Shown piece by piece: positions 8,258 through 27,483 of a DNA stretch of 30,296 bases. The DNA lies in the NCBI GenBank assembly GCA_043820105.1, contig JBDREC010000080.1, positions 1 to 30,296 of the forward strand. Reading direction: 5' to 3'. Numbering within the stretch: the first letter of the stretch is position 1; the number at the start of each line of letters is the position of its first letter. The stretch comes from JBDREC01 sp043820105 [NCBI: Pseudomonadota bacterium] (GTDB lineage: Bacteria > Bdellovibrionota_F > JAHFAK01). Under the pieces are notes generated by a model. The model saw only the letters and a program-made list of their open reading frames with translations. It was not told the origin of the DNA and did no database searches. The translations under genes were made by a program, and so were the position numbers.

Positions 8258-10831
8258 CTATATCAATAATTCCTCAGCCGGCTTTCTCTGATTATAATTA
8301 GAACTCATCGAATATCCATAAGCTCCAGTATTTGCTATCAATAAAACATCATCTTCACATGTTTCTGGTAAACACCTGTCAAAACCAAGTGTATCGCCTG
8401 ATTCGCAAATAGGTCCGACAATATTAGCTAGCATCTTTAATGGCTTATCAAGTTTTGATAAGTTGACAATTTCATGCCAGGAACCATAGAGCATTGGTCT
8501 AATAAAAGAATTCATACCTGCTGAGGTTCCAATGTATGTGATATCTCCTTTGGTTTTGATTTGGTTTACTTTGGATATTAGGACGCCAGCTTCAGCCACC
8601 AAAAAGCGACCAGGTTCCATCCATATTTCAATGTCAGGATTATCTTTTTTGAAATCATTTAAAAGTTTATCAAGTTTTTTTAAATTAAGGTTTTCTTGAT
8701 CAGGTCTTTCAGGGACTCCAAGACCTCCACCAACATTAATGATTTTAACATGGTCAAAGGATTTGGAGATTTCATATAAAAATTCAAGCATATCTAACCA
8801 ATGAGAGCTATCAAAAATGCCACTTCCTGCATGAGCGTGAAGTCCAATGATTTTACAATTAAGATTTTTGCATAGCTCGAGCACCTGGGGTAGCTCATTT
8901 GGACTTATTCCAAATTTTGACTCAAGACCAGCTGTTTTGACAAAGCTGTGATGGCCTTTGCCAAGGCCGGGATCTATTCTTAAAAAGATATCTTTGTTTT
9001 TAAAAATATTAGACCAGGATTTTAAAGGGTAGGTGCTATCTAAATTTATTAAAACATTTTCTTTTAAGGCATTTTCAAATTCATATTTTGATGCAAAATT
9101 TGGTGTAAATAAAATTCTTTTATTTTCAATTCCACTAAACAGATTTTTTATAAGCTTTACTTCATTTAAAGATACACATTCAAAACCAAGACCAAGGCTT
9201 TCAAGTATTTTAAGGATTTCAGGATTACTATTTGCCTTTATTGAATAAAAGGTTTTTGAAATTGAAGTTAAAGATTTAAGTTGAGTTGCTCTTTTTTCAA
9301 TAAGCTCTTTATTATAAACATAGGCACAGGGAATTTCCTGTGCGACCTTTAGCAAGTCATCTTTTCTTTTTTGCCACCATTTAAAAGGCTTTTGATCTAA
9401 GGTAATTTCACTATCTGCAAAAAGCTCAGTCCAGGTTGGACCAAGTGAAAGCCTGGTTTTAGCGTGTTTAAATAAGAGCTCATGAAGACCAACAACAAGC
9501 TTATCTGCCTTTTCATCATCAAGCACAAAGGTTATATTAAGATCAGAAGCTGCCTGAGAAACAAGATAAATTTTTTGTTCTTCAAATACTTTAAGGGCAG
9601 ATGATATCTTATGCAGAATTGATCTAATATTTCTGCCTACAAGACTTATAGCACTACAACTTGATATTATTTTTGTAGAGCAAATATTTGAAAGTCTTAA
9701 AATGAGCTCTTCAAGAATTTCAGGATTAATTGCATTTGCTGTGTGATCAAGTGAAACTGTTAAATTAGCCTCAGAAGTTGAAACAAGATCAATTGATAAA
9801 TCAAGGTCTTTGAATATGGAAAAAATATTAGCCAAAAATCCAACTTGATGCCACATCCCTATTGTGTCCATTGAAACAAGGGTGATTCCTCTTTTTAGGG
9901 AAATAGATTTAACACTTGCTCCTTGATCAAGGGTATTTGAAGAAATTAAAGTGCCTTTAAAGTCAGGTCTATCAGTCCAACAGATTTGCAGGGGAATATC
10001 ATTTTTCATAACAGGATAAAGGCATTTTGGGTGCAAAACTTTAGCTCCAGTTGAAGCAATTTCTTGAGCTTCCTTATATTCAAGGGACATTAAAAGACGA
10101 GCCTCTGGAACTGCATGAGGATTAGCTGTGAAAAGACCTGGAACATCAGTCCAGATCTCACATTTTTCGGCGTTTATCTTGGATGCAATAATGGTAGCGG
10201 AAGTATCTGATCCACCGCGACCTAATAAGACAGTGTTGCAATTTTCATCAGAGGCAATAAATCCTTGGGTGATTAAAATCTCAGCACTGATTGAAGAAAG
10301 GCTTTCTTTGAATTCCTTGTCATAACTAAAGTCAACTTCACAACTACAATATTTGCGCCATTGATTATCTGAACTTGGCTTTGCTTTAAGATATTTTCTA
10401 ATGTCCACAAAGCTTGCATTTAGTTTGTTTTGTTTTAGAAAGAGGCTTCCAAGTTGAGTAGACATTAATTCACCACAGGCCATTACTTGGGCGCTTATTT
10501 TGGGACTTGCTTCACCAGTTAATTCAATTCCCTTTAAAAGGCGTTTTAAGATTTCGAATTCATTTGGCTTAAAATCCTTGATTTCCATCTCTTTTGCTAA
10601 AGCAAGATGCCTTTTTATTATTGCTTCAATTTTATCATCAGAAATAGTATTAATATTTTTTAGCATGCCTTCTAGTTCATTTGAAATGCCTGATAAAGCA
10701 GAGCAAACTAAAATGACTTTATCATTTTCTTTTAATTTATTCTTAGCAATGTCTTTTATGTTTTGCCAATTTGTTCTAGTTGAAACTGATGTTCCACCAA
10801 ATTTTAAAACAATCCATTTTTGATCGCTCAA
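8258..10831 (-). CDS. lysAC: Bifunctional aspartate kinase / diaminopimelate decarboxylase
   Basis: The 857-residue protein carries both ends of the lysine pathway. Residues ~5-300 are an aspartokinase (VLKFGGTSVS at the start, LLGRGGSDTSATI, a TGAKVLHP segment), ~310-460 look like the paired ACT regulatory domains, and ~490-857 are a PLP-dependent decarboxylase with FYSIKANSN (PLP lysine K532), HAHAGSG, EPGRF (E739) and GPICESGDTL (C809). Aspartokinase phosphorylates aspartate; the decarboxylase converts meso-diaminopimelate to lysine in the cytoplasm. Such fusions are known from Xanthomonas and relatives. Fusing first and last enzymes, with ACT domains between, suggests lysine feedback on the kinase half. 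Translation starts at TTG 10831, with AGGAG 6-7 bases upstream; no better ATG exists. A heptamer array lies just upstream of the ribosome site. Confidence 0.93.
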   Translation of the reverse strand: MSDQKWIVLKFGGTSVSTRTNWQNIKDIAKNKLKENDKVILVCSALSGISNELEGMLKNINTISDDKIEAIIKRHLALAKEMEIKDFKPNEFEILKRLLKGIELTGEASPKISAQVMACGELMSTQLGSLFLKQNKLNASFVDIRKYLKAKPSSDNQWRKYCSCEVDFSYDKEFKESLSSISAEILITQGFIASDENCNTVLLGRGGSDTSATIIASKINAEKCEIWTDVPGLFTANPHAVPEARLLMSLEYKEAQEIASTGAKVLHPKCLYPVMKNDIPLQICWTDRPDFKGTLISSNTLDQGASVKSISLKRGITLVSMDTIGMWHQVGFLANIFSIFKDLDLSIDLVSTSEANLTVSLDHTANAINPEILEELILRLSNICSTKIISSCSAISLVGRNIRSILHKISSALKVFEEQKIYLVSQAASDLNITFVLDDEKADKLVVGLHELLFKHAKTRLSLGPTWTELFADSEITLDQKPFKWWQKRKDDLLKVAQEIPCAYVYNKELIEKRATQLKSLTSISKTFYSIKANSNPEILKILESLGLGFECVSLNEVKLIKNLFSGIENKRILFTPNFASKYEFENALKENVLINLDSTYPLKSWSNIFKNKDIFLRIDPGLGKGHHSFVKTAGLESKFGISPNELPQVLELCKNLNCKIIGLHAHAGSGIFDSSHWLDMLEFLYEISKSFDHVKIINVGGGLGVPERPDQENLNLKKLDKLLNDFKKDNPDIEIWMEPGRFLVAEAGVLISKVNQIKTKGDITYIGTSAGMNSFIRPMLYGSWHEIVNLSKLDKPLKMLANIVGPICESGDTLGFDRCLPETCEDDVLLIANTGAYGYSMSSNYNQRKPAEELLI

Positions 10832-10846
10832 GTTAACTCCTGTTAA

Positions 10847-10881
10847 TAAGTGGTAAGTGGTAAGCTGTAAGTGGTAAGTTA
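10847..10881 (-). repeat. Heptamer array in the leader of the lysC-lysA gene
   Basis: On the plus strand it reads TAAGTGG, TAAGTGG, TAAGCTG, TAAGTGG, TAAGTTA. It mixes the two unit types seen after etfA and ends only 15 bases from the TTG start codon, so it should be in the 5' leader, or interrupt the promoter, of the minus-strand gene. Confidence 0.85.
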
Positions 10882-11282
10882 AGTGAAATTACAAAATAAT
10901 CAATTATATTTTTCTACAGTTTCTAATATAACATATCATAAAAACATCTTGAGATATCGGCTTTTGTGCTTGCATAAAGGTGCAAAGATTCTCCATGAAA
11001 ATAAAAAATAGAAGACGAACGTTCGATTGTAAAATTATTATTAAAGAAAGCAATATCTTTCATATTACGTGGCAGTTTCATAGCAAATAATTAAAGGCTT
11101 GTTTTTTAATAATTAATTAAATCCAAATTCATGAATATCTTAATCCAAAAAATTGGATTATTCATGATTTTGGATATTTATTTCTAAAATAAAAATTAAT
11201 CGAAATTCACTAATTGCTTGAATTTATAGAAAATCCCAAAAGGCCACTTAAAGGGCATGAAACTTGCAAATTGAGTTTTTGT
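10882..11282. other. Divergent intergenic region between lysC-lysA and the peptide locus
   Basis: About 400 bases, very AT-rich, without a supportable ORF. It contains AAGACGAAC overlapping a CGAACGTTCG palindrome (11012-11025) and a large nested inverted repeat (11121-11175). I found no convincing -35/-10 pair for the lysC-lysA gene. Confidence 0.4.
11121..11175. repeat. Nested inverted repeat (55 bases)
   Basis: Outer arms ATCCAAATTCATGAAT (11121-11136) and ATTCATGATTTTGGAT (11160-11175) are complementary at 15 of 16 positions. Inside, AATCCAA (11142-11148) pairs perfectly with TTGGATT (11153-11159), leaving a 5-base bulge on the left. No T-tract follows on the plus strand. It could be a regulator site, a cruciform or a recombination remnant at the edge of the peptide locus. 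Confidence 0.7.
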
Positions 11283-11311
11283 TTGACTAAACGAGATCTT
11301 TTCGCTATATG
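11283..11311 (+). promoter_or_regulatory. Sigma-70-type promoter of the peptide locus
   Basis: TTGACT (11283-11288) and TATATG (11306-11311) are 17 bases apart. The predicted start near 11318 is about 25 bases before ATG 11343, which has a GAGG ribosome site. It supports starting the first gene at 11343 rather than at the in-frame TTG 11214. Confidence 0.65.
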
Positions 11312-11342
11312 TCAATTTCCCAAAACGGTTGGCGAGGCAGTT

Positions 11343-11570
11343 ATGAAACGAATAAATTCTATTTTTTATCAAAATTCCCACATATATAGTATATTTCCTT
11401 CAAATCTTAACGATCAAGAGTTGCAAAATGAAATTGGAAATTTGGAAGAATATACAAATAAAAAGTTAATGGAGATTTCAGGTTATATTAAAGAAAATTG
11501 CTATAATAATGGAGTTTATTCAATGAATGAAGAAGTGGATATTGTTTTTGTGGAAAAGAAGTTGAGTTAA
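11343..11570 (+). CDS. Small protein of unknown function, first gene of the peptide locus
   Basis: A 75-residue product beginning MKRINSIFYQNSHIYSIF, charged in its middle (QELQNEIGNLEEYTNKKLME) and with one cysteine (ENCYNNG). No signal peptide, membrane helix or family motif is visible. ATG 11343 follows GCGAGG by 7 bases and sits right after a good promoter; the frame stays open to a TTG at 11214, but that start precedes the promoter and lacks a ribosome site. It is separated from the acetyltransferase gene by 91 bases. It might be a partner, a regulator or simply a resident gene; composition and orientation match the genes after it. Confidence 0.55.
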   Translation: MKRINSIFYQNSHIYSIFPSNLNDQELQNEIGNLEEYTNKKLMEISGYIKENCYNNGVYSMNEEVDIVFVEKKLS

Positions 11571-11661
11571 GTCTATGTTGATTTAGAAAAAGTTTATATG
11601 AAAGTAGATGATGGAGACTATTAAGATATTTTATTCCAATTTGGGGAGGTGATTTAGAGCT

Positions 11662-12495
11662 GTGTTAAAAAAAGGAGAATTTAACTTGAATTCAAATGAT
11701 TGGAAAGAAAAAATAAGTATTCTGATGGAAGGGAATCTAACTAATCTATTCCAAGATTATTCACAGGTTGATGGCTTCACTTTTGAATCAAACGAAAATT
11801 ACGGGATACTAATTTCTCCTTATAACTCTTATTTGTTAAATACAGTTTTATATTTTAATATTGTTGATGAGAGCAAACTTGAATTTTATATTTCTAATAT
11901 AATTAATACTTTTAGCGATAAGCATCTATCCTTTACATGGAGAATTGGTGGATTATCTCGAAATAAAGATGTTATAAAATTATTATTAGAAAAGAATGGA
12001 TTAAAGTATCTGGAAGATCAACCTTTAATGTGGTTAGATTTTTTGGACTATTTTAAATCCATGAGTTTAAGTAATCCAAGTAAATTAAATATTAAACAGA
12101 TCGTAGATGGTGAGGATTATTGTGATTATTTAGAAGTGTTATCCAATGGTTTTCAACTTGATCCTATTATAACTTCTTTTTTTATGAAATTTCAAAACTT
12201 TTTCGGCTTTAAGAAAAGCAGTAAAATTAGAAACTTCGTAGGATATTATTACGATAAACCAGTTTGTTGTTCTTCTATATATACAGATAATAAAAGTTGC
12301 TCAATTTGTAATGTTACTACAAAAAAAGAATATAGAAAAAGAGGATTTGGCAGGGAAATAACTTTACATAGTATTCGGGAAGTTCACGAATTAGGTTTTC
12401 CTGGTGTAGGTTTATTTTCATCATTTGATGGATATGAGTTGTATAGAAAACTGGGATTTTTAAAAATCTCAAGTAACATAATTTATAGGATGTAA
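11662..12495 (+). CDS. GNAT-family N-acetyltransferase
   Basis: The 277-residue protein has a C-terminal GNAT core (~170-277): a beta-strand pair around NFVGYYYDKPVCCSSIYT, the acetyl-CoA binding segment NVTTKKEYRKRGFGREIT with the R/Q-x-x-G-x-G signature (R225-K-R-G-F-G230), and a closing YELYRKLGFLKISS strand typical of the family. The N-terminal ~150 residues resemble a degenerate partner domain as in two-domain GNATs. It would transfer an acetyl group to an amine, possibly on the neighbouring peptide product, or protect the producer as MccE does in microcin C systems. Two starts are possible: GTG 11662 after GGGGAGGTGAT, or TTG 11686 after AAAGGAG; the first is used. The substrate is unknown. 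Confidence 0.75.
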   Translation: MLKKGEFNLNSNDWKEKISILMEGNLTNLFQDYSQVDGFTFESNENYGILISPYNSYLLNTVLYFNIVDESKLEFYISNIINTFSDKHLSFTWRIGGLSRNKDVIKLLLEKNGLKYLEDQPLMWLDFLDYFKSMSLSNPSKLNIKQIVDGEDYCDYLEVLSNGFQLDPIITSFFMKFQNFFGFKKSSKIRNFVGYYYDKPVCCSSIYTDNKSCSICNVTTKKEYRKRGFGREITLHSIREVHELGFPGVGLFSSFDGYELYRKLGFLKISSNIIYRM

Positions 12496-12531
12496 TAAAA
12501 TATAATAAACTAGTTCTAAAGGAGTTTTGTT

Positions 12532-12642
12532 ATGAGTAGGAAAATAAATAAACGAAAAACACAAAAGAATTCTAATTCTGTGATTAAATTTAATTTAATT
12601 GCTACAAGTAAAATGATTGGTTGCGCGAATAAAATAAGTTAA
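12532..12642 (+). CDS. 36-residue orphan peptide, candidate E1-modified precursor
   Basis: A 36-codon ORF follows TCTAAAGGAGTTTTGTT, one of the best ribosome sites in the window, and lies alone between the acetyltransferase and the E1-like gene. The N-terminal half is strongly basic (MSRKINKRKTQKN); the second half reads IKFNLIATSK then MIGCANKIS, with one cysteine and several Ser/Thr residues. The FNL element recalls the FNLD box of class I lanthipeptide leaders, which is read by an RRE domain; the next gene carries an RRE-like domain. A leader-plus-core precursor is therefore plausible. Unlike MccA-type peptides it does not end in asparagine. It could instead be a small unrelated protein. 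A weak AT hairpin lies before the next gene. Confidence 0.55.
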   Translation: MSRKINKRKTQKNSNSVIKFNLIATSKMIGCANKIS

Positions 12643-12725
12643 AATATATTTATTAAAATTGATATTATATATTAATTATTAGGGTTTTCTTAATAATAAT
12701 TATATTTAACTATTTCAAGATTGAT

Positions 12726-13862
12726 ATGAGGATTATATTTGTGAGTAATGAATGCTTAATTAGTGATAAATTGTCGCTTTCAAAAAATGTAGAGATAGTT
12801 TACGAGGGGAATAATCTCATTAGTGTAATGCAGTCTGACTTATCAATAATTGAAACTTATAAATGTAATGTTTTAGTAAAAGAAATATTTAAACTATTAC
12901 ATGATAATGATGAAACTTTAGATAATTTATTTGTTAAGCTCGAGGTTAAAAATGATAGTCTTAAAAAAGAAATTATTAAATTCTTATTTGAATTAGAAAA
13001 GAAAAATATAATTGAAAATAAAACAAAATTAGAAAGAACAAGACCCGCTGAGATAAACAGAAGTATATTGGAAAGATATTCATCTCAGTTTTCATTCTTT
13101 TCTTCATTTGAAAAGAATAAAAAGTCTCGTTTTGATTTTCAAAAAGATCTTATTCAATCAAAAATACTTATCTTAGGTATAGGGGGAATAGGTTCAATAG
13201 TGTTTGAAGGTCTTCTGAGGAGCGGAGTAAATAATTTTATTTTATATGATTATGATAAAGTTGAAGTTAGTAATCTTAATCGACAGATTGTTTATACTTA
13301 TGACGATATAGGAAAATATAAGGTTGATGTAGCCATAGAGCGAGCAAAAAAAATAAATTCTGATTGTAGAATTAAAGCTAATAAAATAAAAATCGATAGG
13401 ACTATTTCTATAGAAACCGTTATTAAAGATTCTAGTCTAGTAATTGTTTGCTGCGATGAACCTAATATTGAAGACATCGTGGACATTGTAAATCCAGCCT
13501 GTGTTAAATACCAAAAATCATTTATTGTTGGGGGAGGGTATTCTGCACATATAGGGTCACTTCCGATAACGATAATACCTAAAAGATCGATATGTTGGAA
13601 TTGCTATAAAAACTTTATATATAGGAACAATACAATAAAGTCAAAATATTATAAATTCAAGAACACTACATTGGGAAGCAGTATTATGCCCACAGCTGGT
13701 ATAATAGCAAATTATACGATTATTGAAGCAATAAAGGTGATAACAGGATATTCTAAACCTAACTTTACTAATGTGGTTAGTGAATTAAGTTTTACTGATA
13801 TGAAGGTAGAGAAAATATCAATATCACCTGATAAAAAATGCCAAAGTTGTAGGAATTTTTAA
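12726..13862 (+). CDS. ThiF/MoeB/MccB-like E1 adenylating enzyme with N-terminal PqqD-like domain
   Basis: The 378-residue protein starts with a ~110-residue domain whose pattern (NVLVKEIFKLLHDNDETL, then EIIKFLFELEKKNII) matches PqqD/RRE winged-helix peptide-binding domains. The E1 domain follows with LGIGGIGS (G151-x-GG-x-G156), LYDYDKVEVSNLNRQ (R186), a lysine in DIGKYKVD and VCCDEP, the ATP and adenylation residues of ThiF/MoeB. CWNC (290, 293) and CQSC (372, 375) look like the structural zinc site. Such enzymes adenylate a C-terminal carboxylate or side chain; MccB and PaaA act on short peptides. The adjacent 36-residue ORF is the obvious candidate substrate. Its stop overlaps the next ATG (TAATG). 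No clear ribosome site precedes its own ATG. Confidence 0.82.
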   Translation: MRIIFVSNECLISDKLSLSKNVEIVYEGNNLISVMQSDLSIIETYKCNVLVKEIFKLLHDNDETLDNLFVKLEVKNDSLKKEIIKFLFELEKKNIIENKTKLERTRPAEINRSILERYSSQFSFFSSFEKNKKSRFDFQKDLIQSKILILGIGGIGSIVFEGLLRSGVNNFILYDYDKVEVSNLNRQIVYTYDDIGKYKVDVAIERAKKINSDCRIKANKIKIDRTISIETVIKDSSLVIVCCDEPNIEDIVDIVNPACVKYQKSFIVGGGYSAHIGSLPITIIPKRSICWNCYKNFIYRNNTIKSKYYKFKNTTLGSSIMPTAGIIANYTIIEAIKVITGYSKPNFTNVVSELSFTDMKVEKISISPDKKCQSCRNF

Positions 13863-15283
13863 TGTTAAGAATATTGAGTGTCATATTTTTAATCTGTTTT
13901 AGTTTATGTACTTGTACTAATAAAAATAAAGATATTAAAAAAGAAATAATATCTATTGAGCTGTTGTCACTTGCATATAATTATGATGTGAGTGGATTGC
14001 TAACTTATTCCGCATTATCTGTTATTAATGATACTAGTGCACACTTATTTAGCTTAGAAAAAGACTTAACAATTCGAGGTAATTTAGCAAAACATTATTT
14101 AGTTAATGACACTTATACTAAGTATAAAATATTATTAGATAAAAAATATCTTTCTCTTAGAGGAGATTCTTTAACTAGTGAAGATGTTGTATTCTCTTTT
14201 ACATACTTGTGCAAATATTCATCATATATAAGAGGATTATTATCTTCAGTTAAGGGTGTAAGTTCATGTAAAAAAGAAAAATGTGAAATTGGAATTAGGG
14301 AAGTGGATCAATATCAAGTAGAATTTGAACTTGATAGTCCGGATCCTAATTTTATAAAAAAATTATCCTCCCCATTTTTTATTATTTTTAAAAAGGGGAA
14401 GTCTTATTATGAAAAAATAGGGAAATGTAAGATACCATATCAAACGGGTCTAGGGAATTTAGCTGACTGCAAGGATGGTTTTTTACAGGTTGTTTTCAAG
14501 GAAAAAGTGGTTAATATCTATGATTCACAGGCGAAGTTCGATCTTAGGACAAAATTTGATGGCAAATTATTAGATGAAAATCCAGGAAAGACTTTCTCAC
14601 CTTCTCTCATAGTGCTTTCTTTAGCTGCAAATCCAAAATCAAACCTTTCAAGAGAAGTTAGGTTAGCTGTTCTGGATAGTGCAACTAGATCTAGGGCCAT
14701 TTTGTCAGAAATGATTAAATTAAAAGTATCCTATACATTTGTTTCCGAATGGTTTATGGCCAAAAAATATAAAATTAAAAAACATAATCAGAAATTACCT
14801 TATATCGATAAAAAACTTTGTCCATCTCGACCAATGAAGTTTATCATAGATAAATCATTGCCCGAAAGAAATAATCTAAGAAAATGGTTAAAACAACTAT
14901 CGCCTTGTGAAATAGAAATAATTGAGTATCAAACAGAAAGGGTAGTTTATGAATATGCAGATTCTGATTTTGGTTTTTTATGGGTAACTCCAGATTATTT
15001 AGATTATTACAATATTTATTCAATTTTTGATTGTGAAGAAAATATTTGTTTTTTTAATTGGCAAGATAATCAATTGCAAACACTATTGAATAAAATAAAA
15101 TCCGCTGATTTATCGGAGGAGAAAAAAGCCTTAATATCACAGAACATTGAAGAGCATTTAATTAATAATGGATATGTAGCTCCTCTCCTACAGTTAAATA
15201 CATGGATGAAAATTAATAATGCAATCTTACCTGTTCATCCTGCTGGATTAGCACAACTTAAAATAAGTGATTTCATTTTATGA
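13862..15283 (+). CDS. Peptide-binding-type (SBP family 5) lipoprotein
   Basis: The 473-residue protein has a short lipoprotein-like signal (FLICFSLCTC; C18, or C16, as lipidation site). The body follows the family 5 (OppA/DppA) plan: an initial segment about a background state, YKILLDKKYLSLRGDSLTSEDVVFSFTYL corresponds to the conserved region with GxxLTAEDV, and the C-terminal part ends with HLINNGYVAPLLQLNTW. Sequence is diverged and cysteine-rich for the family. No permease or ATPase genes adjoin it; instead it overlaps the E1 gene by 1 base and the histidine kinase by 4 (ATGA). A role as an extracytoplasmic sensor that presents a peptide to the kinase is inferred; import through a permease elsewhere is the alternative. 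AGGA precedes its ATG inside the E1 gene. Confidence 0.75.
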   Translation: MLRILSVIFLICFSLCTCTNKNKDIKKEIISIELLSLAYNYDVSGLLTYSALSVINDTSAHLFSLEKDLTIRGNLAKHYLVNDTYTKYKILLDKKYLSLRGDSLTSEDVVFSFTYLCKYSSYIRGLLSSVKGVSSCKKEKCEIGIREVDQYQVEFELDSPDPNFIKKLSSPFFIIFKKGKSYYEKIGKCKIPYQTGLGNLADCKDGFLQVVFKEKVVNIYDSQAKFDLRTKFDGKLLDENPGKTFSPSLIVLSLAANPKSNLSREVRLAVLDSATRSRAILSEMIKLKVSYTFVSEWFMAKKYKIKKHNQKLPYIDKKLCPSRPMKFIIDKSLPERNNLRKWLKQLSPCEIEIIEYQTERVVYEYADSDFGFLWVTPDYLDYYNIYSIFDCEENICFFNWQDNQLQTLLNKIKSADLSEEKKALISQNIEEHLINNGYVAPLLQLNTWMKINNAILPVHPAGLAQLKISDFIL

Positions 15284-17838
15284 AGAAGTCAATAGTAAGG
15301 ATGCTGGGAAGAAATTTATTTAAATCACTATTTGTTTTATTTATATTGGCATGTATTTCTTTATGTGGCGTGATTTTTATTATAAATATTATTGAGCAAA
15401 ATAAGGCGGAAAATGCAATTTCAAATTCTGTATTTTATGCATTGCAAGAACCGGTTAGAAACTCAGATCTAATTTCAATCATAAGGATTATTAAAAGTTA
15501 TCAGAAAGCAAATTATTTTGCAAGATTTTGTATTAATTTAAATGGGGGAACCGAATTAATTCAAGAAAAAGAATGTAGTATATTAAAAAAAAGAATCTAT
15601 AAAGTACCCTTATCAGATAAAAATATTTTAATTGCTATAAAAGCAAAATCAACATGGCAGTTATGGTATGTTGTTATTTTTGTTTCTTTAATGTCTTTCA
15701 TCCTATTATTGATTATTTTGAAAATTTATAAAACTGGTAATGAAATTGCATCTGAAATAAAAATATTAGGAACTGATATTGAATTTAATAATTTTCAATA
15801 TTATGAAACATTTATTACTCAAAGAAAAATAATTAAAATTAAAGAAGAACTAAAACAAAAATCCCGTCTAGCCTCCGTCGGCCAAACCGCGGCCATGATC
15901 GCGCATGATGTTCGAAAGCCTTTTACTAGTCTTGAAGTTTTATTGGGTTTGATTCCGGCGCGAAAAAATGATGATGAATTTATGAAAAAGGCGATGAATG
16001 ATATTCGAGGGCAGCGAAAGCAGGTTTCTGATATGCTTAATGATATTTTGGAATTTACGGGTAAGAAAGAAGCTAACATTGAAAAATGCAATCCAGCGAC
16101 GATTATTTCTTCTGCGATTTTTGAAACTAGGGCAAGCTTTAATGATACTTTTGTTGAATTTATTTATGATTTGAAGCATACGGGGTATTATAATATTGAT
16201 ATTTATAAGGTCACTCGTGTTTTTACGAATATAATTGGCAATGCTGTTGAAGCAATGAAAGGCGTACAGTGTAAAGCATACAGCGTACGGCGTGAAGATG
16301 AAGATATTAATGAGATTTGGTTTAAGACTTGTGATGGTGAGATAGAAGGCAAAAAGTTTATTCAAACTACTATTGGAAATTCAGGTAGTTTTATTAGCAA
16401 TGAAGATAAAAAAAGACTTTTTGAAGCTTATTTTACCAAAAATAAAAAGGGTGGAACAGGGCTTGGCCTGGCGATTTGTAAAAAGGTTATAATGGATCAT
16501 GGTGGTAGCATTCAAATCAATTCGGACAAGGAATCAGGAACTGAGTTTGTTTTTACTCTTCCTTATCTTGATGGGGATGAATCGCTTGTTAATTTAAACT
16601 TAATAAAAAATTCAACACAGATTTTAGATCAAAATGAAACTCATGATTCAATAGATACTCAAGACATGCTTTCAAGTATCAATGATATTAACAAAAAACT
16701 TGGAAGAAAGCTTCGGCTTCTTGTATTAGATGATGAACCCTTGTTCAGACTTTCTTTGAGAAATCTTATAATAAAAAGTGAAGAACTGTCTCCTGTTCTT
16801 GATATCAGTGAGCATGAATCCCCTGAAAGTGTATTGGAATATCTTAAAGAAACAGAAGTTGATTATGCTATACTTGATATTGATCTCGGAGTCAAAAAAA
16901 TGAATGGCTTAGAGCTTTGTAAGATTATTAGCGATAAATATCCATCAATTAAAATGATTATCCATTCAAATAAAAATAAAACTGAGAATGAGAAACAGGC
17001 GAAAAAAGCAGGAGCACTTGAATTTGTTCCAAAACCAATGACAGTGGTAAGCTTATTGAGCTTTTTGAGTTTGTCGATTTTAGATAATAGATCTTTGGAA
17101 TTTGGAACTCAGAGCACAGAACTCAGAAATCAGCATAAAGATAAAAGAAAAGGTGATTTGAAAATTCTTGTTGTTGATGATGAATTTATCATAAGTATGG
17201 GACATAAGATATTAATTAATGATTATTTTAAAAAACGTAATTTTGTAAAATCAGAAGCTGAAATAATTAAATATGAAATATTAACTGCTACAGATCCTGA
17301 GATGGCTTTGGAAATATTGAAAAGTGAAAAAATTGATATTATTCTTAGTGATTTTTATTTTGATGGAAAATCAATGAATGGAACCGGCCTTGTGAGTGAA
17401 GCTAGTAAGCTTGATCCTAAAATAAGATGTTTTGTTATTTCTAATTCTTTAGGTGATGCATGTAAACAGGAAGTTTTCAAAGCAGGTGCAAAAGAATATT
17501 TTCAGGCTCCCTTGACTTGTGAGATGCTTGATAAAATGTTTTGTTTTTTAAATGGCCAAACTTCATCTTTTGATAATAATTTTCAAAGATTTAATTATAG
17601 CAAAAGTAAAATAGATTCAGATGAATTAATTAGCCAAACAGATGATAAATTTAAAAAGCTTTCTCAATTATCGGATAAATTACACCATGATATTAATAAA
17701 CCGTATTCAATGGCCGTTTTAACAGTAAATGAAATCAAGAAATTAACGGATGATGAAAAAATCATAAAACTAATTGAAGATAATATTATTAAGTCGCTTG
17801 ATGACTTGAGAGAGTTTAATGATAATTTAAAATGCTGA
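15280..17838 (+). CDS. Membrane hybrid histidine kinase with two receiver domains and a second H-box
   Basis: The 852-residue protein has two membrane helices (~14-36, ~130-150) flanking a ~90-residue periplasmic domain, a HisKA domain (MIAHDVRKP, H209), and an HATPase with N-box (NIIGNAVEAM) and GGTGLGLAI (391-399). Two receiver domains follow (~485-605, D533; ~628-755, D691), then a C-terminal segment with LHHDINKP (H803) that looks like a second H-box without an ATPase. It overlaps the binding-lipoprotein gene by ATGA, so the periplasmic domain probably contacts that protein. Output is expected through the NtrC-type regulator 58 bases downstream. Oddities: a 64% GC patch at the H-box and two degenerate heptamer repeats within the coding sequence (16261, 17105). 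No ribosome site is seen; translation is probably coupled. Confidence 0.88.
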   Translation: MKKSIVRMLGRNLFKSLFVLFILACISLCGVIFIINIIEQNKAENAISNSVFYALQEPVRNSDLISIIRIIKSYQKANYFARFCINLNGGTELIQEKECSILKKRIYKVPLSDKNILIAIKAKSTWQLWYVVIFVSLMSFILLLIILKIYKTGNEIASEIKILGTDIEFNNFQYYETFITQRKIIKIKEELKQKSRLASVGQTAAMIAHDVRKPFTSLEVLLGLIPARKNDDEFMKKAMNDIRGQRKQVSDMLNDILEFTGKKEANIEKCNPATIISSAIFETRASFNDTFVEFIYDLKHTGYYNIDIYKVTRVFTNIIGNAVEAMKGVQCKAYSVRREDEDINEIWFKTCDGEIEGKKFIQTTIGNSGSFISNEDKKRLFEAYFTKNKKGGTGLGLAICKKVIMDHGGSIQINSDKESGTEFVFTLPYLDGDESLVNLNLIKNSTQILDQNETHDSIDTQDMLSSINDINKKLGRKLRLLVLDDEPLFRLSLRNLIIKSEELSPVLDISEHESPESVLEYLKETEVDYAILDIDLGVKKMNGLELCKIISDKYPSIKMIIHSNKNKTENEKQAKKAGALEFVPKPMTVVSLLSFLSLSILDNRSLEFGTQSTELRNQHKDKRKGDLKILVVDDEFIISMGHKILINDYFKKRNFVKSEAEIIKYEILTATDPEMALEILKSEKIDIILSDFYFDGKSMNGTGLVSEASKLDPKIRCFVISNSLGDACKQEVFKAGAKEYFQAPLTCEMLDKMFCFLNGQTSSFDNNFQRFNYSKSKIDSDELISQTDDKFKKLSQLSDKLHHDINKPYSMAVLTVNEIKKLTDDEKIIKLIEDNIIKSLDDLREFNDNLKC
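15862..15914 (+). other. GC-rich patch encoding the H-box of the histidine kinase
   Basis: Of 53 bases 34 are G or C, about twice the local average. The codons (GCC, GTC, GGC, ACC, GCG, ATC) differ from those on both sides. It encodes RLASVGQTAAMIAHDV, the phosphoacceptor helix. Upstream sequence is particularly AT-rich and downstream sequence looks like the rest of the window. Confidence 0.8.
16261..16295 (+). repeat. Degenerate heptamer repeat inside the kinase gene (HATPase domain)
   Basis: In-phase units GGCGTAC, AGTGTAA, AGCATAC, AGCGTAC, GGCGTGA resemble the array between etfB and etfA, sharing GGCGTACAGTGTA exactly. It encodes GVQCKAYSVRRED just after the N-box. Five units are 35 bases, so with flanking sequence the frame stays open. 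Confidence 0.75.
17105..17132 (+). repeat. Degenerate heptamer repeat in the linker between receiver domains
   Basis: Units GAACTCA, GAGCACA, GAACTCA, GAAATCA follow each other in phase and encode GTQSTELRNQ, in the linker between the two receiver domains. This is another unit sequence but the same 7-base period and degenerate style as the other arrays. Confidence 0.6.
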
Positions 17839-17896
17839 ATTCAGAAATTTGAATTAACATAAAATTATGCCTGCGATTTTGTTAAGGGAGGCCAAA

Positions 17897-19348
17897 ATGA
17901 AGAAATATAAGCTTATTATTATTGAAGATGATTCTTTGCAAAGGACCTATGCACAGGAAATATTGGAAAATGAATTTGAGCTATATTTTTCTCAAGAAAT
18001 AAATGAGATTGTAAGAAATATTGATGAAAATAATATAGATCTTGCACTTATTGATATTGATCTTGGAGCTGATTATACAGGCATTGATATTTTGAACTTA
18101 ATAAAATCAAAATGCCCTAATTGTGTATGTATTATGGTTACTTCAAGTTCATTATTGTCTGTTGTTAGAGAGTCAATTAAGCAAGGAGCCGCTTGTTATC
18201 TAAAAAAACCATACACACAAGATGAACTAAATATTCAAATTCAAATAGGCATTATAATTCGAGAAAAAAATAAAGAATCTTTAATTAAAGATGAAATTAT
18301 CAAAGTAAATCGTAATGCCCACCTAAATAAAATAATTGGGGAAAGCAAAGCAATAAAACAAATAAAAGAACAAATAAATGAAGTATCCCAATATCATAAT
18401 GCCACTATTTTGATAACAGGTGAGTCAGGAACCGGAAAAGAGCTTGTAGCCAGGGCCATACATGAAACTTTAAAATCAAGCTCTCGACCATTTGTTCCAG
18501 TTAATTGTGCTGCAATTCCAGCAGAGCTTTTAGAAAGTGAATTATTTGGCCACGAAAAGGGTTCATTTACTGGAGCCTGTGATCGAAAAATTGGTTGTGT
18601 AGAACTGGCATCTGGAGGTGATCTTTTCCTTGATGAGATAGGAGAGTTGTCTTTAAGTGCACAGGCAAAACTATTAAGAGTTATTCAGGAAAGAGAGTTT
18701 ACAAGAGTAGGGGGATTAAAACCGATAAAGTCTAATTTTAGACTCATTTCCGCAACAAATAGAGATCTCAAAAAATTAAAAGAAGAGGGAAAATTTCGAA
18801 ATGATCTTTATTTCAGAATATTTGGTTATCCAATCCACATTCCACCCCTTAGGGAAAGACTTGAAGATATTCCATTCCTTCTTGAGCACTTTATTGCAAA
18901 ACAATCGTCAAGGCTTGGAAAAAAACTATGCGGATTTGATAATGATCTAATTAATCTATTTTCTTCTATGAATTGGGAAGGAAATGTAAGAGCTTTAAAA
19001 AACCTTATTGAAATAATGGCGATTAAGGCTAAATCTGAAAGGCTTAGTACAGTAGATTTGGATATGTTACAGTATTGTGGAAATGAAAAATCCGAAAAAC
19101 ATAATTTCTCTAATTGTTCTATCGACAGAAATTTCTATGATAATCTGAAAGAAAACGGCTTGTTTGATACACTAAAAATTATTGAAAAAAATATAATTAA
19201 AGATATGTTAATGAAGTCACGAAATCAATCAAACGCAGCTGAAGCTCTGAAAATCCGAGCAACAACCTTATCAGAAAAGATCAAAAAATATAAAATTGAT
19301 GTTAGGGAATTAAAGCCAAAGAAACCTGGAAATAAAGGCTCGTCTTGA
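17897..19348 (+). CDS. NtrC-type sigma-54-dependent response regulator
   Basis: The 483-residue protein has a receiver domain (~1-120, phosphoacceptor D53 in LIDIDLG), a central AAA+ domain (~140-380) with Walker A GESGTGKE (175-182), GSFTGA (222-227; the sigma-54 contact loop, usually GAFTGA), LFLDEIGEL (Walker B) and LRERLEDIP, and a C-terminal Fis-type helix-turn-helix (NAAEALKIRATTLSEKIKKY). It activates sigma-54 promoters. ATG 17897 after GGGAGG is chosen over ATG 17867, which has no ribosome site. It is 58 bases after the kinase gene, its likely partner. A near-perfect sigma-54 promoter lies 10 bases after its stop codon. The stop lies within the recurrent GCTCGTCTTG motif. Confidence 0.93.
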   Translation: MKKYKLIIIEDDSLQRTYAQEILENEFELYFSQEINEIVRNIDENNIDLALIDIDLGADYTGIDILNLIKSKCPNCVCIMVTSSSLLSVVRESIKQGAACYLKKPYTQDELNIQIQIGIIIREKNKESLIKDEIIKVNRNAHLNKIIGESKAIKQIKEQINEVSQYHNATILITGESGTGKELVARAIHETLKSSSRPFVPVNCAAIPAELLESELFGHEKGSFTGACDRKIGCVELASGGDLFLDEIGELSLSAQAKLLRVIQEREFTRVGGLKPIKSNFRLISATNRDLKKLKEEGKFRNDLYFRIFGYPIHIPPLRERLEDIPFLLEHFIAKQSSRLGKKLCGFDNDLINLFSSMNWEGNVRALKNLIEIMAIKAKSERLSTVDLDMLQYCGNEKSEKHNFSNCSIDRNFYDNLKENGLFDTLKIIEKNIIKDMLMKSRNQSNAAEALKIRATTLSEKIKKYKIDVRELKPKKPGNKGSS

Positions 19349-19357
19349 TTATTTTTA

Positions 19358-19373
19358 TGGCACCAATATTGCA
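19358..19373 (+). promoter_or_regulatory. Sigma-54 promoter of the secreted metallopeptidase gene
   Basis: TGGCACCAATATTGCA is a near-perfect -24/-12 element with correct spacing. The predicted start near 19384 gives a leader of about 55 bases before GTG 19440. The activator encoded immediately upstream is the first candidate to control it. Confidence 0.8.
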
Positions 19374-19439
19374 GATAATCATGCTTAATTGGTATAAACA
19401 AGGATTTTCATTCAAATCCTATATTTGGGGGCATTTTAA

Positions 19440-20702
19440 GTGAAACGTATAAAATCAAAAAAATATCTTATCAATAATCTATTTCTTCTTTATCTTTTAT
19501 CAAATCTTATTAGTGCAAATGCATACAGCAATTGTCTAAATCTTTTTGATAATGTAAGTGAATCAAATGAATTAATAGACTTAGTAAGGAACTTAAGTTC
19601 AAATGCTGTAAATGAAAAAGGTGAAAGGGCTTTTGAAGTAGAATATCTTGATGATCTAATGCTTGAAAGACAAATATCATCTCTCCCTCGTTTTATTCAA
19701 AGTGATCCAACTTTTGATAAAAAAACAAGTCCAATTGTTATTGATGTTGCAAATTTAGAAAGTGATAGGGCTCAAAGAATTTATCAAATGTCAAAAGATG
19801 TTGCTATAGCTTTAAATGAAATTTTTACGGAAAATAAAAATCCATTAATTATTTGGATGCTTGATAAGCCAAGTTGGTCTGATTTATTTGATATGCCCTA
19901 TGCAATTAGTTCAGGTTTTGGAAGTGTTACGTATTATATTAAAGATATGAGCAGCATATTTTTAGGAAGAAGTGGAGATCCACATGCTTATCAGGCACAT
20001 TATTCCTATATCAAATATTTTTTACGAGATACTGGAAACAAGCATCTTGAAAAAATTAAAAAAGCTTTTGGTCTTAAGAGTGTTGACGAGCTTGATCAAT
20101 TTTTAATGGGTATAGAGTCAGATATTTTATTTAAATTTAGACATATTCAAGCCTTGCCTCATGAAATAGGTCACCACTATTTATGGGGAAGTGGAATTAG
20201 AGACAGAATAAGTGATACTGTGACTGAGATCTTAGCTGAACTTATATCAAAATCTGTTGATTTTAATGGTTTCAATAAAGATAGAAAAGCTTCGGATCCT
20301 GATTACGAAAAAGGCTTTGATTTATTAGATGAAGTTGTTTTTCAGATATTTGATGGAAAAATTCATTTAGAAGCTAAAAAATATCTTTTAAAACATCCTG
20401 AATCGGATCTTTCTGATTTAATAAATGGTGCCAAGTTTTGGTATAATCAAATAGTAAGTAAAGAATTTGCTCAAAAATATTCACAGATTCCTGGTTTTAC
20501 TCAAAAGCTTTTTGAAAAGCTACTTGCCTTTGAAGGCCAAATCACTGATCAAATCTTTGTATTTTTTGTAGCTGAAACATTAAGCCAGACAAGTGGCGAG
20601 AAATGGACAGTTCAAAAACTAATCGAATCAAATATTATTATGGAAGCTCTGTTTCTCGATATTGATATAGAATTATTAAAACAAATCCTAAGAAAATCCT
20701 AA
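19440..20702 (+). CDS. Secreted HExxH zinc metallopeptidase-like protein, family not recognised
   Basis: The 420-residue product has a basic N-terminus and a hydrophobic signal segment (LINNLFLLYLLSNLISANA). Its centre holds PHEIGHHYLWG, an HExxH zinc motif (H241, E242, H245), followed 18 or 22 residues later by glutamates in DTVTEILAEL (E263, E267) that could be the third zinc ligand, as in gluzincins. The surrounding sequence matches no family I can name. It starts at GTG 19440 after GGGGGC; no ATG alternative gives the signal peptide. It is preceded by a sigma-54 promoter and converges on the 1529-residue secreted protein. A peptidase acting in the periplasm or outside is inferred; its substrate is unknown, though the peptide locus upstream makes peptide processing a thought. 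Confidence 0.7.
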   Translation: MKRIKSKKYLINNLFLLYLLSNLISANAYSNCLNLFDNVSESNELIDLVRNLSSNAVNEKGERAFEVEYLDDLMLERQISSLPRFIQSDPTFDKKTSPIVIDVANLESDRAQRIYQMSKDVAIALNEIFTENKNPLIIWMLDKPSWSDLFDMPYAISSGFGSVTYYIKDMSSIFLGRSGDPHAYQAHYSYIKYFLRDTGNKHLEKIKKAFGLKSVDELDQFLMGIESDILFKFRHIQALPHEIGHHYLWGSGIRDRISDTVTEILAELISKSVDFNGFNKDRKASDPDYEKGFDLLDEVVFQIFDGKIHLEAKKYLLKHPESDLSDLINGAKFWYNQIVSKEFAQKYSQIPGFTQKLFEKLLAFEGQITDQIFVFFVAETLSQTSGEKWTVQKLIESNIIMEALFLDIDIELLKQILRKS

Positions 20703-20747
20703 AAAGTGGGTGGCACATTTTTGATCGTTTCTTGGACGCCACATTTT
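20703..20747. repeat. 45-bp direct repeat, copy 1
   Basis: This copy begins right after the metallopeptidase stop codon and matches 21050-21094 at about 41 of 45 positions without gaps. It contains GTGGGTGGCACATTTTTG and TTGGACGCCACATTT, in which GTGGC and GCCAC are inverted. Related motifs ATTGCGACCAAA and ATTGCGACTTT lie just downstream (20764-20820), which together resemble the multiple binding sites of an integrase-type transposon end. Confidence 0.8.
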
Positions 20748-20859
20748 ATTTTACTATTTTTTATTGCGACCAAATGTTCTCAAAAAAACCCATAAATAAT
20801 GGCAAAATTGCGACTTTAAGTACAAGGCTTATGAGCTTGGTTTCGTGTAAGTTGCTGAA

Positions 20860-20988
20860 ATGAAATATGAAAGGTGCAAGTCCGTCTTGGCACACCTTGT
20901 GCAATAGCATATTAATAGCTTTTTCATATTCCTCCTCCTTGAAAAAGATATATTTTAAGCCAGTTGAGAAATCAACTGGCTTTTTTGT
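20860..20988 (+). ncRNA. Possible small RNA or structured 3' UTR with a CCTCCTCC loop
   Basis: An 8-bp stem CTTTTTCA (20919-20926) with TGAAAAAG (20940-20947) displays TATTCCTCCTCCT in its loop, complementary to Shine-Dalgarno sequences. A strong terminator follows 10 bases later. Further short stems precede it (GCACA with TGTGC around 20890-20902). No good promoter is visible, so it could equally be the 3' end of the metallopeptidase message. The 5' boundary is a guess. Confidence 0.35.
20957..20988 (+). terminator. Strong Rho-independent terminator
   Basis: AAGCCAGTTGA (20957-20967) pairs perfectly with TCAACTGGCTT (20972-20982) around a GAAA tetraloop, followed by TTTTGTTTT. It ends plus-strand transcription from the metallopeptidase gene or from a small RNA. 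Confidence 0.92.
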
Positions 20989-21049
20989 TTTATATTCAAT
21001 GTAAAATCTGACAATAGGACACTGTTTATTAAAATCATTTTTTTGTTAT

Positions 21050-21094
21050 AAAGTGGGTGGCAGATTTTTGCTAGTTTCTTGGACGCCACATTTC
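21050..21094. repeat. 45-bp direct repeat, copy 2
   Basis: Second copy of the 20703-20747 repeat, in the same orientation and 347 bases away, just beyond the stop codon of the converging 1529-residue gene. Differences are few (CAC/CAG, GATCG/GCTAG and the final base). Confidence 0.8.
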
Positions 21095-21111
21095 ATTATT
21101 TCAACTAATTA

Positions 21112-24100
21112 CTATTCACTACTTAATTGTTGTCTGATTTCTTGTATTTTTTCTCTTAGTTTTTTATGTAAACTAATTGAATCTGGTCCTAGTTTTGTTA
21201 CCATTTCATCAGGAACTGTTCCATAGACTGTTTCAAGAACAAATAAGTATCTTGACATAACATCGGCTTGACCTGAATTATTTATTGTTTCAACAAGCCA
21301 AGGTGTTGATTTAGGTATTTCGGCTACTTTTTCTCCTGTTCTTTTTGCCTCTTTCCATGCTTCTGAATCTAGATATCTTGTCATCCACATATTATAAATT
21401 TTATGTAAGAAGTCTATTGGTTCAATAAAATGGGTTTCAATAGGTGTTAAACCAGCTTTGGTTTTTTTAATATTGTCAGTTGCTGTTTGAAAGGTGCCAT
21501 GAGCATCGAGAAAATCAATAAGAGCCATAGCATACATAAATTCATCATAAGATCTTGCTGCAACTGTAATAATATTTAGAGTAAAAACTAAAACTGGATC
21601 ATTAGAATCAGCATGATTAAATCTATACTCAACTCTATAACGGCTTCTAGATCCACCTTTTTTTCGCCAATTTGTTTCTGAAGTTCTATCCTCAATTTCT
21701 AGATCAGGATCAAAACCTTCAATTACATCTCTTGCTTTCTGGACATCAAAATTCATGCTAAGACCAAAAACGACCCTAGCCGGAAGTTTGTCCTCAACAA
21801 GTACATATCTGCTGGCAAGATCAGGTTTTTCGAGCTCTTCTTTTAATTTATAAGTTAATCCACGTGGAGAAGTCAGTCTTTGTCCTTGCTTTCTAAGTTG
21901 AGCTAATAACTTTGCTGATTTTCCACTAAGAACAAATGGTCCATCGTTTGCTTTGAGTTCAGGTAAGTGCTGCCATATAAACTCGCCGAGTTCACGAAAG
22001 GCAGTTCTTTGTGTAATTCCAAATAAAGCATCAAAAACAGGTCTAAAACTTGACATATCAACATGTTTAAACTCAGTTGAAAGTAATTTATCCTGCTGAA
22101 CAGCTTCCAGTAGCCGTGTTCCAAAGTTTATAGCTCTTATCATTTGGTTTGGATTACTTGCAAAGCTAGCATAAGGTATTAGTATTTGATAAGGACTTAT
22201 TATAGTGAAAACTTGTCCATTAAGAACCACTGTTAAGCTAGAATCCTGTAAAGTGCTGCCTTGTTTTACTAATTGAAAGCCTCTTTCTTGAGTTATTAAT
22301 AATCTTTCAATTGCCTCTAAATCCATTGGGGTATCAACTATAATATGAATTGCTGCTTTTGTAGCAATTAGACTTTTCAGATAATAAAAATCAGCATTTA
22401 CATCAGCGTCAGCAGCTGAAATATATTCACCAGGTTTCCCTTTTTTATATCTAGCATATCCTCTTTGCCAAGTTCCTGGATTATTAGCTAGAAAAATTGC
22501 AGTGGCAGTAGCATCTCTTAGTTCTGTTAGATTTAACTCATGTACCCGTCTTGTTAATGAAAGGGTCATGCCAGGTCCTGCTGACCTATCTAGTTCAATG
22601 GAATCTGAGAGGATATCTCTTTCATCATAATCTGTCTCTGTATAGATGTCTTTTGCATTGGCTCTGGCTTCAGCTAGTCTAGTAATGGCGGTTATCATAG
22701 CTATGTTAGGATCATAAGGTTCAGGATCACTTCTTCTGGTTTGTCTTCTTGGAGGACGGGCAGCAAGAATAGCTTGTGTTTGGCTTCCATCTTTATTTGT
22801 AACTGTTACATGGCTTCCACTTTTTCTGCCATTTAATTTATTTTGTAGATCTGTCCAATTAGTTTGCTTTGTATCAAATAAGTGGCCTTGTTCTCTTAAT
22901 AACTTTCTAACTCTTAAATGAGCCATTGGATTTTCTGTTAATATTTGATTTAATTTATCAACTGTTGCAACAGTAATATTAGGAACCACAGTGCTTGTGC
23001 CTTCAGGGAATTCTTCTGGCAATAAACTAATAAACTCATGCCATGAAATTATTTTGCCACTAGTTGGTCCTGCTAACATCATGCCTTTTTTAGAATAAAC
23101 TCTGCTGATAGCACTTGCTAGTCTTTCATATAAAAGATTTAAAAGATGCTCTTCAAATAATGAATTTCCACTTTCCTTTAGTTTTTGAATTTCTCTTATT
23201 AAAGTTAAAACATATGGATCTTTCCAGACTTCTTCCATTATATCAGCTTGAGTGACTTCAGGATTATCACCAATTGTTTCATCTTCATTTTCACCTATTG
23301 ATGGTTCTTGGACATCTTCTCCTTCTTGACCTGGAAGATCAATGTTTTCACCTTCAATGCTTGGTAATATTGCAAAGCCTTCTTCTTCACCTGGAAGTTT
23401 GTGATCTTCTTCTTGACCAGGTACAAGTGGAGGAGGTGCTATGGCTGGCATTGCTGGAGCTCCTTCAAGCAATGATGGGTTTTCTACAGCTTCAAATTCC
23501 ACCTGATTTCTTAGACTTTCTAAAAAGGAAGTGTCAAGAATAGGTCGCTCAGGACTAAATGGTAATGAATTGAAATCAAAGGTTTGATTAGTAGTTGGAA
23601 TAAATGTTTTTCTTTTACCATTTCCAGTTGCAGGTGAACTGCTTTCTTGTATAGCCAATGATTCATTTGATGAAGAAGCTAAAATTGTATTTTGACCTGG
23701 ATTTTCATTTGGATTCGTTTGGTCTCTTACAGATTCAAGTTCAAAACCCGGTGTGCTTTGCGCTTTTACCGCTTGACTTGAATCAACATCAATAGCTTCA
23801 CCGAGGCCTCTTCCTTCGTATTGTGCTTGATTGGCAAGGTCCCTTGAAACTTGGATCCTGTTTCCATGTTCAAGAGGGTTTGGTCTGTTTTGTGATAACA
23901 ACCTTGTTTCAAGTTCATATGGTAAAAATGTTTCTCCTGTGGCTTGGCTAATATAGGCTCTCATGCTGTCAACTTCAGCTACTAAAGCCTCATATTGTCC
24001 TCGATGTAATTGCCCTCTAATATAGGAGTCATTTAAATTTGCTTCTAAGCTGCTTAACTTGCTTTCAACAACTGCTGTGTTAACAAGATTATTTGTCACG

Positions 24101-27384: not shown

Positions 27385-27483
27385 ATTCTTGTTTAATTAA
27401 AAATATTCATGAAAAGATAAAAAACAATTTATAAAAAATTCATGATCTTTTCTTGTACTTCTATCCTTATTACTGAAGCTTTA

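Follow-up and report, generated by a model that had tools for sequence, protein, structure and literature searches.

Can one bacterial locus code both for the making of a modified peptide and for its sensing? The question is raised by a contig of 30,296 nucleotides (JBDREC010000080.1, assembly GCA_043820105.1; the whole of it is called the window here) from JBDREC01 sp043820105, a member of Bdellovibrionota_F. Its stretch 11121-19348 consists of a dyad, a sigma-54-type site (11253) and then seven genes in one run on the + strand: a 75-codon open reading frame (ORF), a GNAT, a 36-codon peptide ORF, an N-terminally extended ThiF/E1 enzyme, an OppA-like lipoprotein, a hybrid kinase and an NtrC-type activator. 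All the genes named in an earlier reading of the letters (the original prediction) were present in the order and on the strand it gave, the start codons of the first ORF and of the activator being corrected to 11343 and 17897, and the promoter that it placed ahead of the unit was found as the sigma-54-type site at 11253. Our answer, held tentatively, is that the unit may be self-contained: a pathway for a ribosomally synthesised and post-translationally modified peptide (RiPP), of the type based on an enzyme with a RiPP recognition element (RRE) and a ThiF domain, coupled to its own binding-protein, kinase and sigma-54 circuit in a full make-and-sense loop. Modification of the peptide by the E1 appears likely, and sensing of the product is what the gene linkage by itself would suggest. 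The features concerned are the following.

11121..11175, no strand: dyad, 17-nucleotide arms 94% complementary, centre about 130 nucleotides before the expected transcription start
11253..11268, + strand: sigma-54-type promoter site GGGCATGAAACTTGCA (strict pattern)
11343..11570, + strand: 75-residue protein, function unassigned (codon score +13.9 bits; ORF opens at TTG 11214)
11662..12495, + strand: GNAT-type acetyltransferase, 277 residues (Pfam GNAT models below cut-off; Streptomyces plasmid relative)
12532..12642, + strand: candidate precursor peptide MSRKINKRKTQKNSNSVIKFNLIATSKMIGCANKIS, 36 residues (ribosome site, position before the E1)
12726..13862, + strand: probable RRE-ThiF (E1-like) adenylyltransferase, 378 residues, with R186, K199, D244 and Cys pairs 290/293 and 372/375 (Pfam, PDB search, alignment, tree)
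13862..15283, + strand: lipoprotein-like oligopeptide-binding protein (SBP family 5), 473 residues (Pfam, PDB search, N-terminal motif)
15280..17838, + strand: membrane hybrid histidine kinase, 852 residues (HisKA, HATPase and two receivers by Pfam; motif positions)
17897..19348, + strand: NtrC-family activator (receiver Asp, GESGTGKE, GSFTGA, Fis-type helix-turn-helix; ORF opens at 17867)

The enzyme and its candidate precursor peptide

The E1 appears to be of the peptide-modifying type that had been predicted. Its residues 137-373 matched the Pfam ThiF family with 161.4 bits, and in a PDB search the best match was MccB of the microcin C pathway (79.8 bits, E = 1.9e-21), with PaaA of the pantocin A pathway (73.2 bits) as the next bacterial enzyme, behind ubiquitin E1s. 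PHROG 19840 was matched over residues 47-373 (E = 4.2e-40), and the NCBIfam MoeB and ThiF models stayed far under their cut-offs. The residues R186, K199 and D244 were invariant in a seven-sequence alignment, and their spacing (13 and 45) equals that of R167, K180 and D225 in EnfB (PMC12250964). In a tree of 25 proteins, 5 MoeB/ThiF-type rows were set apart from 20 N-terminally extended E1s with a support of 100/100, a split that needs two changes when TcdA is added; the row nearest by path to the window E1 was the E1 of a Lactiplantibacillus plasmid (30% identity).

The same gene had been described as a PqqD-E1 fusion, of which the ThiF part stood and the PqqD/RRE part was weak by its family model, TIGR04302 matching residues 33-96 at E = 0.0019 with 18.6 bits, where the cut-off is 100. 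The N-terminal 144 residues, linker included, matched an N-terminal profile of 14 RRE-E1s with E = 9.1e-8 and a probability of 94%. A structure model of low confidence (predicted local distance difference test, pLDDT, 48) placed strands and then helices at the N-terminus. We regard an N-terminal RRE as likely rather than proven.

Known RRE-ThiF (TLAT) RiPP pathways are those of microcin C (MccB), pantocin A (PaaA), GRC (GrcB), enterofaecin (EnfB) and ind (IndF). Like them, the window E1 joins an N-terminal extension to a ThiF-fold adenylation domain with the catalytic Arg, Lys and Asp, and has a small ORF directly upstream; a GNAT is also in its unit, N-acetyltransferases being reported beside some of the known enzymes (PMC12250964). 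Unlike them, it has no adjoining exporter, radical SAM enzyme, oxygenase or peptidase, and is followed instead by the lipoprotein, hybrid kinase and NtrC-type activator. Relatives outside plasmids were few: genome contigs gave three at 29-32% identity, all MoeB/ThiF-type (L008-L010) and none close; viral contigs, searched with the E1 and two alignments, gave no confirmed relative, and no place in the phage collection covered 80% of the E1 query. No match at E<=1e-20 was obtained among 387 genomes from the phylum to which L009 belongs, a result that is uninformative, no known positive being among them.

The small ORF directly ahead of the E1 has AAAGGAG upstream, 7 nucleotides before its ATG. 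Among 20,000 simulated gaps of 230 nucleotides, the length of the real one, an ORF of at least 30 codons behind such a ribosome site arose in 0.01% when the composition was taken from the gap itself, and in 0.025% when it was taken from the intergenic stretches of the window. A comparable small ORF precedes the gene at 10 of 16 RRE-E1 loci (window included; L001, L015, L017, L023, L028 and L030-L032 left out) versus 10 of 59 control genes, whose starts were hand-picked from annotation tables (Fisher p=0.0007), and MccA was recovered as positive control. In a looser list, judged by eye, small ORFs with ribosome sites were seen at L031 and L032, and no clear one at L030. E1 homologues that always lack a nearby small ORF had been named in the original prediction as evidence that would count against it, and this is not the case. 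A stable hairpin attenuator in the gap between peptide and E1 was dropped as a reading, the fold there scoring z=-0.18.

The precursor ORF typical of RRE-ThiF pathways is present, as a candidate identified from its sequence. The peptide contains nine Lys or Arg, Asn33, a C-terminal Ser36 and a sole Cys at position 31, the sixth residue from its end (...CANKIS). It lacks Asp and Glu, which would leave the E1 just two kinds of group to activate, the C-terminal carboxylate and an Asn side chain; a C-terminal thiolactone onto Cys31 is our preferred guess for the product. That the E1 modifies this peptide we consider probable. Agr-type autoinducing peptides are kinase-sensed thiolactone peptides, and the likeness to them lies only in the proposed product, a ring from Cys to the C-terminal carboxylate; no AgrB or AgrD was seen in the window, where the E1 would perform the ring chemistry. 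The GCANKIS end differs from those described for MccA (Asn), GrcA (Glu/Cys) and EnfA (WIVI) (PMC12250964). It does not close in the Asn of microcin C precursors, and it offers neither the core Glu nor the C-terminal Cys of GRC, where GrcB, an RRE-ThiF enzyme, makes a thiolactone from an internal Glu to the C-terminal Cys (PMC12250964).

Of 13 candidate precursors, the window peptide among them, 3 share an ending C-x(1,2)-N-x(1,2)-S: the window peptide itself and the small ORFs of Nocardia (L002) and Actinacidiphila (L031). Among open-frame ends the pattern occurs in 16 of 7985 across all the sequences at hand and in 3 of 744 in the window. It was noticed post hoc, and L002 and L031 are themselves related; we take it as a lead only. 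In local alignments the window peptide did not match these two ORFs above shuffles (124/1000 and 427/1000 as good). On a Lactiplantibacillus plantarum plasmid (L014, 4565-4741), two tandem 19-codon ORFs ending ...EEKNGSC lie ahead of an RRE-E1/MFS pair, and their Glu and C-terminal Cys would fit a thiolactone reaction of the GrcB kind.

Two genes lie ahead of the peptide. For the first ORF, ATG 11343 (75 residues, GGCGAGG ahead, codon score +13.9 bits) is a better start than TTG 11214, and the 118-residue version was rejected on these grounds; the protein had a chance-level match in Pfam and none in NCBIfam, PHROG or PADLOC. The GNAT-type protein scored under the curated cut-off of all Pfam GNAT models (best 22 versus 27 bits), and has a relative on a Streptomyces plasmid (27% identity, 73% coverage, E=6e-15).

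The putative sensing genes and predicted control sites

Base 13862 belongs both to the stop of the E1 and to the start of the lipoprotein gene, the lipoprotein and kinase genes overlap by 4 nucleotides (15280-15283), and a pattern scan of 10800-21200 found no terminator-like site on the + strand upstream of 20957. It is rather likely, in our view, that the unit, kinase included, is one functional system.

The lipoprotein had been called a family-5 binding protein. Its best PDB matches are indeed peptide- and oligopeptide-binding proteins (best E=7.5e-6), weak and limited to about residues 50-206 in the best three; its Pfam SBP_bac_5 score, 28.9 bits, fell just below the 32.4 cut-off. A hydrophobic stretch followed by LCTC forms the N-terminus, and the plasmid collection gave 12 weak partial matches; its structure model (pLDDT 33), like that of the E1, was too poor for a fold search. 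YejA, which has an oligopeptide-binding fold, is part of an importer required for microcin C sensitivity (PMC10924461), and therefore a protein of the oligopeptide-binding type can meet E1-made peptides. The lipoprotein resembles YejA and OppA in that its best solved relatives bind peptides, and differs from them in the weakness of the match and in that no ABC permease or ATPase was found in the window.

The kinase has hydrophobic stretches at about residues 11-41 and 125-153, H209, the HATPase domain, receivers with D533 and D691, and a second H-box at H803; its residues 1-157 were without a PDB match. The second H-box (HHDINKP, within residues 795-852) follows the two receivers with no ATPase behind it, and is perhaps a phosphotransfer domain derived from a kinase dimerisation domain. 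For the activator, ATG 17897 (AAGGGAGG ahead) was preferred over 17867, and the protein combines the receiver, the AAA+ domain with its Walker motif and a GSFTGA variant of the GAFTGA-type loop and the Fis helix-turn-helix of the NtrC family.

In Vibrio quorum sensing by LuxP, LuxQ, LuxO and Qrr, a binding protein, a hybrid kinase, an NtrC-type sigma-54 activator and a small RNA act together. The window has the first three kinds of component and possibly a sigma-54 small RNA nearby, but its binding protein is of family 5, the peptide type, and not LuxP-like, and the signal would be a peptide. Neither protein belongs to the curated LuxO or LuxN families: the NCBIfam LuxO model gave the activator 305.5 bits, far under its cut-off of 800, as was so with many other NtrC-family models, and the LuxN model gave the kinase 68.9 bits against 1550.

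A strict rule for sigma-54-type sites, which required GG and GC and allowed no more than one mismatch and was set after looser scans had been seen, returned four sites (11253, 19358, 20888 and 28056) versus 0.55 expected, and at least four in 0 of 200 shuffles; all four are on the + strand and, if the first ORF starts at 11343, all are intergenic. A looser scan with two mismatches gave 26 sites versus 15. The dyad ahead of the first site contains an inner dyad, TAATCCAA-N4-TTGGATTA (11141-11160), and a repeat like the outer one occurred in 1 of 300 shuffles of the same intergenic stretch and in none of five other intergenic stretches, by a test devised after the repeat had been noticed. We propose it as a candidate enhancer for an NtrC-type activator. 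Because a sigma-54-type site and a dyad stand ahead of the unit, autoregulation by its own activator is a fair guess; control of the 19440 gene is the weaker guess, because no inverted repeat of at least 10 bases was found within 19000-19445. Downstream of the activator the following features were noted.

19358..19373, + strand: sigma-54-type promoter site TGGCACCAATATTGCA (strict pattern, one mismatch)
19440..20702, + strand: 420-residue protein with HEIGH (HExxH) at residue 241, probably exported, family unassigned (Pfam, motif inspection)
20888..20992, + strand: sigma-54-type site TGGCACACCTTGTGCA, hairpin with UCCUCCUCC loop and strong 11-bp terminator (pattern scan, folding)

The 19440 protein, which matched no Pfam family and had no relative in the plasmid collection, is a possible output gene of the circuit. 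The stretch 20888-20992 is possibly a sigma-54 small RNA; it folds with z=-5.6 (0 of 200 shuffles), mostly an effect of the terminator. A 32-codon ORF on the - strand (20829-20927) has its strong ribosome site and its ATG antisense to the UCCUCCUCC loop, and the stretch may therefore be the start region of that ORF instead. In duplex calculations with 19 start regions, one of them the candidate's own antisense, three energies stood out: that of 6154, with 0 of 200 shuffles as low, that of the GNAT, with 2 of 200, and that of the activator, with 6 of 200. A direct repeat of 51 nucleotides, 90% identical, flanks the candidate (20700-20750 and 21047-21097), each copy with GTGGC...GCCAC. Rfam gave no match at gathering score.

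Elsewhere in the window, the + strand site at 28056 precedes recQ and starts 31 nucleotides ahead of its ATG, which leaves almost no leader. Another + strand site (6086, two mismatches) precedes the beta-helix/MopE-motif gene at 6154, and a tandem repeat of seven bases (taagtgg) lies at about 27305-27385, at the end of the 26161 gene.

The proposed loop and its alternatives

The make-and-sense loop that we prefer would run as follows. The N-terminal part of the E1 would likely bind the leader of the 36-residue peptide, the ThiF part would likely adenylate its C-terminal carboxylate or Asn side chain, and the C-terminal part of the activated peptide (GCANKIS) would likely be closed or tagged, for example as the thiolactone onto Cys31. 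With moderate confidence, and assuming a two-membrane envelope of the host, we propose that the modified peptide would then exit via an exporter coded elsewhere, that the lipoprotein would bind it and signal to the kinase, and that phosphate would pass from the kinase to the activator, which would bind the dyad at 11121-11175 and turn on the unit itself, in positive feedback, as well as other sigma-54-dependent genes, for example that of the HExxH protein.

Several observations weigh against this loop. For the enzyme, residues 1-112 without the linker matched the RRE-E1 profile with a probability of only 3.8% (E=0.011), the best control probabilities being 0.78% for shuffles and 1.2% for 12 pieces of other window proteins; the window E1 was flagged in the tree for a long branch and odd composition; an approximately unbiased (AU) test left a clade of the window E1 with MoeB/ThiF unrejected (p=0.155, and p=0.191 with TcdA in the set); and PADLOC E1-E2 defence models matched the ThiF part (best E=5.6e-16), so that the catalytic domain alone is not specific. 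For the peptide, the codon score was neutral (+1.6 bits over 35 codons) and no homologue was found in the plasmid collection, the single match (E=6) lying within a phage capsid gene. For the unit, the Pfam scan of 18 window ORFs revealed no exporter (the dedicated exporter of RRE-ThiF pathways included), no ABC partner for the lipoprotein and no protease beside the E1; neither a histidine kinase nor a binding protein was annotated at any of 17 plasmid RRE-E1 loci; and no result connects the peptide with the kinase.

The unrejected clade, the PADLOC matches and the neutral codon score would all suit an E1 that acts on a protein or cofactor, in MoeB/ThiF-like sulfur chemistry or protein tagging as in E1-E2 defence systems, with the 36-residue ORF being spurious. 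We judge this very unlikely, given the separate 100/100 group of the MoeB/ThiF rows, the N-terminal extension common to RRE-E1s, the strength and place of the ribosome site and the lack of an E2-like gene among the Pfam-scanned proteins of the unit. A plain MoeB/ThiF identity was rejected on that same grouping, though with the AU result standing; likewise, the grouping with plain MoeB/ThiF enzymes that the original prediction had named as counter-evidence was not in the best tree, while the joint clade stays unrejected.

The 17 annotated loci with an extended E1 (L002-L005, L007, L014, L016-L024, L030 and L031) come from records of a plasmid collection that itself describes its gene table as incomplete, with flanks of at most 4-6 kb per side, shorter at record ends. 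Left aside were L001 (same kind as L014), L015 (partial E1), L028 (E1 fragment) and the unannotated L006, L029 and L032. An MFS or ABC gene was annotated at 12 of the 17, the MMPL gene of L030 being left out of this count, and a GNAT at three (L016, L017 and L018). With kinase and binding protein absent from these annotations, the pairing in the window is unusual among the loci sampled, and the coupling of the E1 with lipoprotein and kinase would be either special to the lineage or accidental. A further part of the counter-evidence named beforehand, E1 homologues without lipoprotein and kinase, holds, as annotated, at 17 of 17 loci. Among the unannotated loci, Pfam detected an MFS protein at L006, and at L029 an ABC ATPase together with a LytTR regulator whose gene diverges from the E1. 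The actinobacterial L002 and L030 have an M50-type membrane protease directly behind the RRE-E1 (below the Pfam cut-off in L030), a place taken in L031 by an unscanned protein.

Binding-protein/kinase pairs are widespread. This and the annotations of the 17 loci would suit two separate neighbouring modules, an E1/peptide pair of unassigned use and an ordinary oligopeptide- or nutrient-sensing system of binding protein, kinase and NtrC-type activator; the overlaps that tie the E1 to the lipoprotein and the lipoprotein to the kinase, with no terminator-like site found in between, argue the other way, and we hold this alternative to be unlikely.

A different product is also conceivable. Both of the best-known products of RRE-ThiF enzymes, microcin C and pantocin A, are antibiotics (PMC12250964), and GNATs are annotated beside three of the 17 plasmid E1s. 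The window E1 could likewise make an antibacterial peptide, with the GNAT protecting the producer and the kinase and activator timing production in response to another peptide bound by the lipoprotein. This is rather unlikely, since the window scan found no exporter, versus the MFS or ABC gene at 12 annotated loci, since the peptide ends in Ser and not in the Asn of MccA, and since the GNAT is not detectably MccE-like: the MccE-like immunity role predicted for it was dropped after BLASTP against the MccE of L016 gave a best E of 0.35.

The make-and-sense loop can be drawn further, as a self-amplifying autoinducer in which an E1-made thiolactone (CANKIS ring) would be captured outside the membrane by the OppA-type lipoprotein and act through the hybrid kinase and the NtrC-type activator on the unit, on the exported HExxH protein and on a small RNA under sigma-54 control whose loop is of anti-ribosome-site type, a circuit like that of LuxPQ, LuxO and Qrr built around a RiPP. 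In this full form it is improbable.

The original prediction had held the combination of such an enzyme with a sensor kinase to be unfamiliar. In streptococci, RiPP clusters, some with a ThiF enzyme, are described beside quorum-sensing operons (PMC12250964), and the unfamiliar part is therefore the form with binding protein, hybrid kinase and sigma-54. No title or abstract start that puts a binding protein and a kinase next to an RRE-ThiF enzyme was found in the literature, subscription papers being mostly outside the coverage, so that absence is unproven. One paper on RaS-RiPPs and Rgg/SHP signalling (PMC13361665) reportedly mentions ThiF, a histidine kinase and quorum sensing.

RRE-ThiF enzymes are abundant, one survey having counted 27,400 candidate RRE-ThiF fusions in RefSeq (PMC12150305), and few of their products are known. 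Quorum-sensing operons are found near GRC clusters, and it has been proposed, so far without proof, that the peptides of GRC and enterofaecin pathways act as quorum-sensing effectors (PMC12250964). An enzyme, a peptide and a candidate receptor-to-promoter chain at one locus would make the question of quorum sensing by RRE-ThiF products directly testable.

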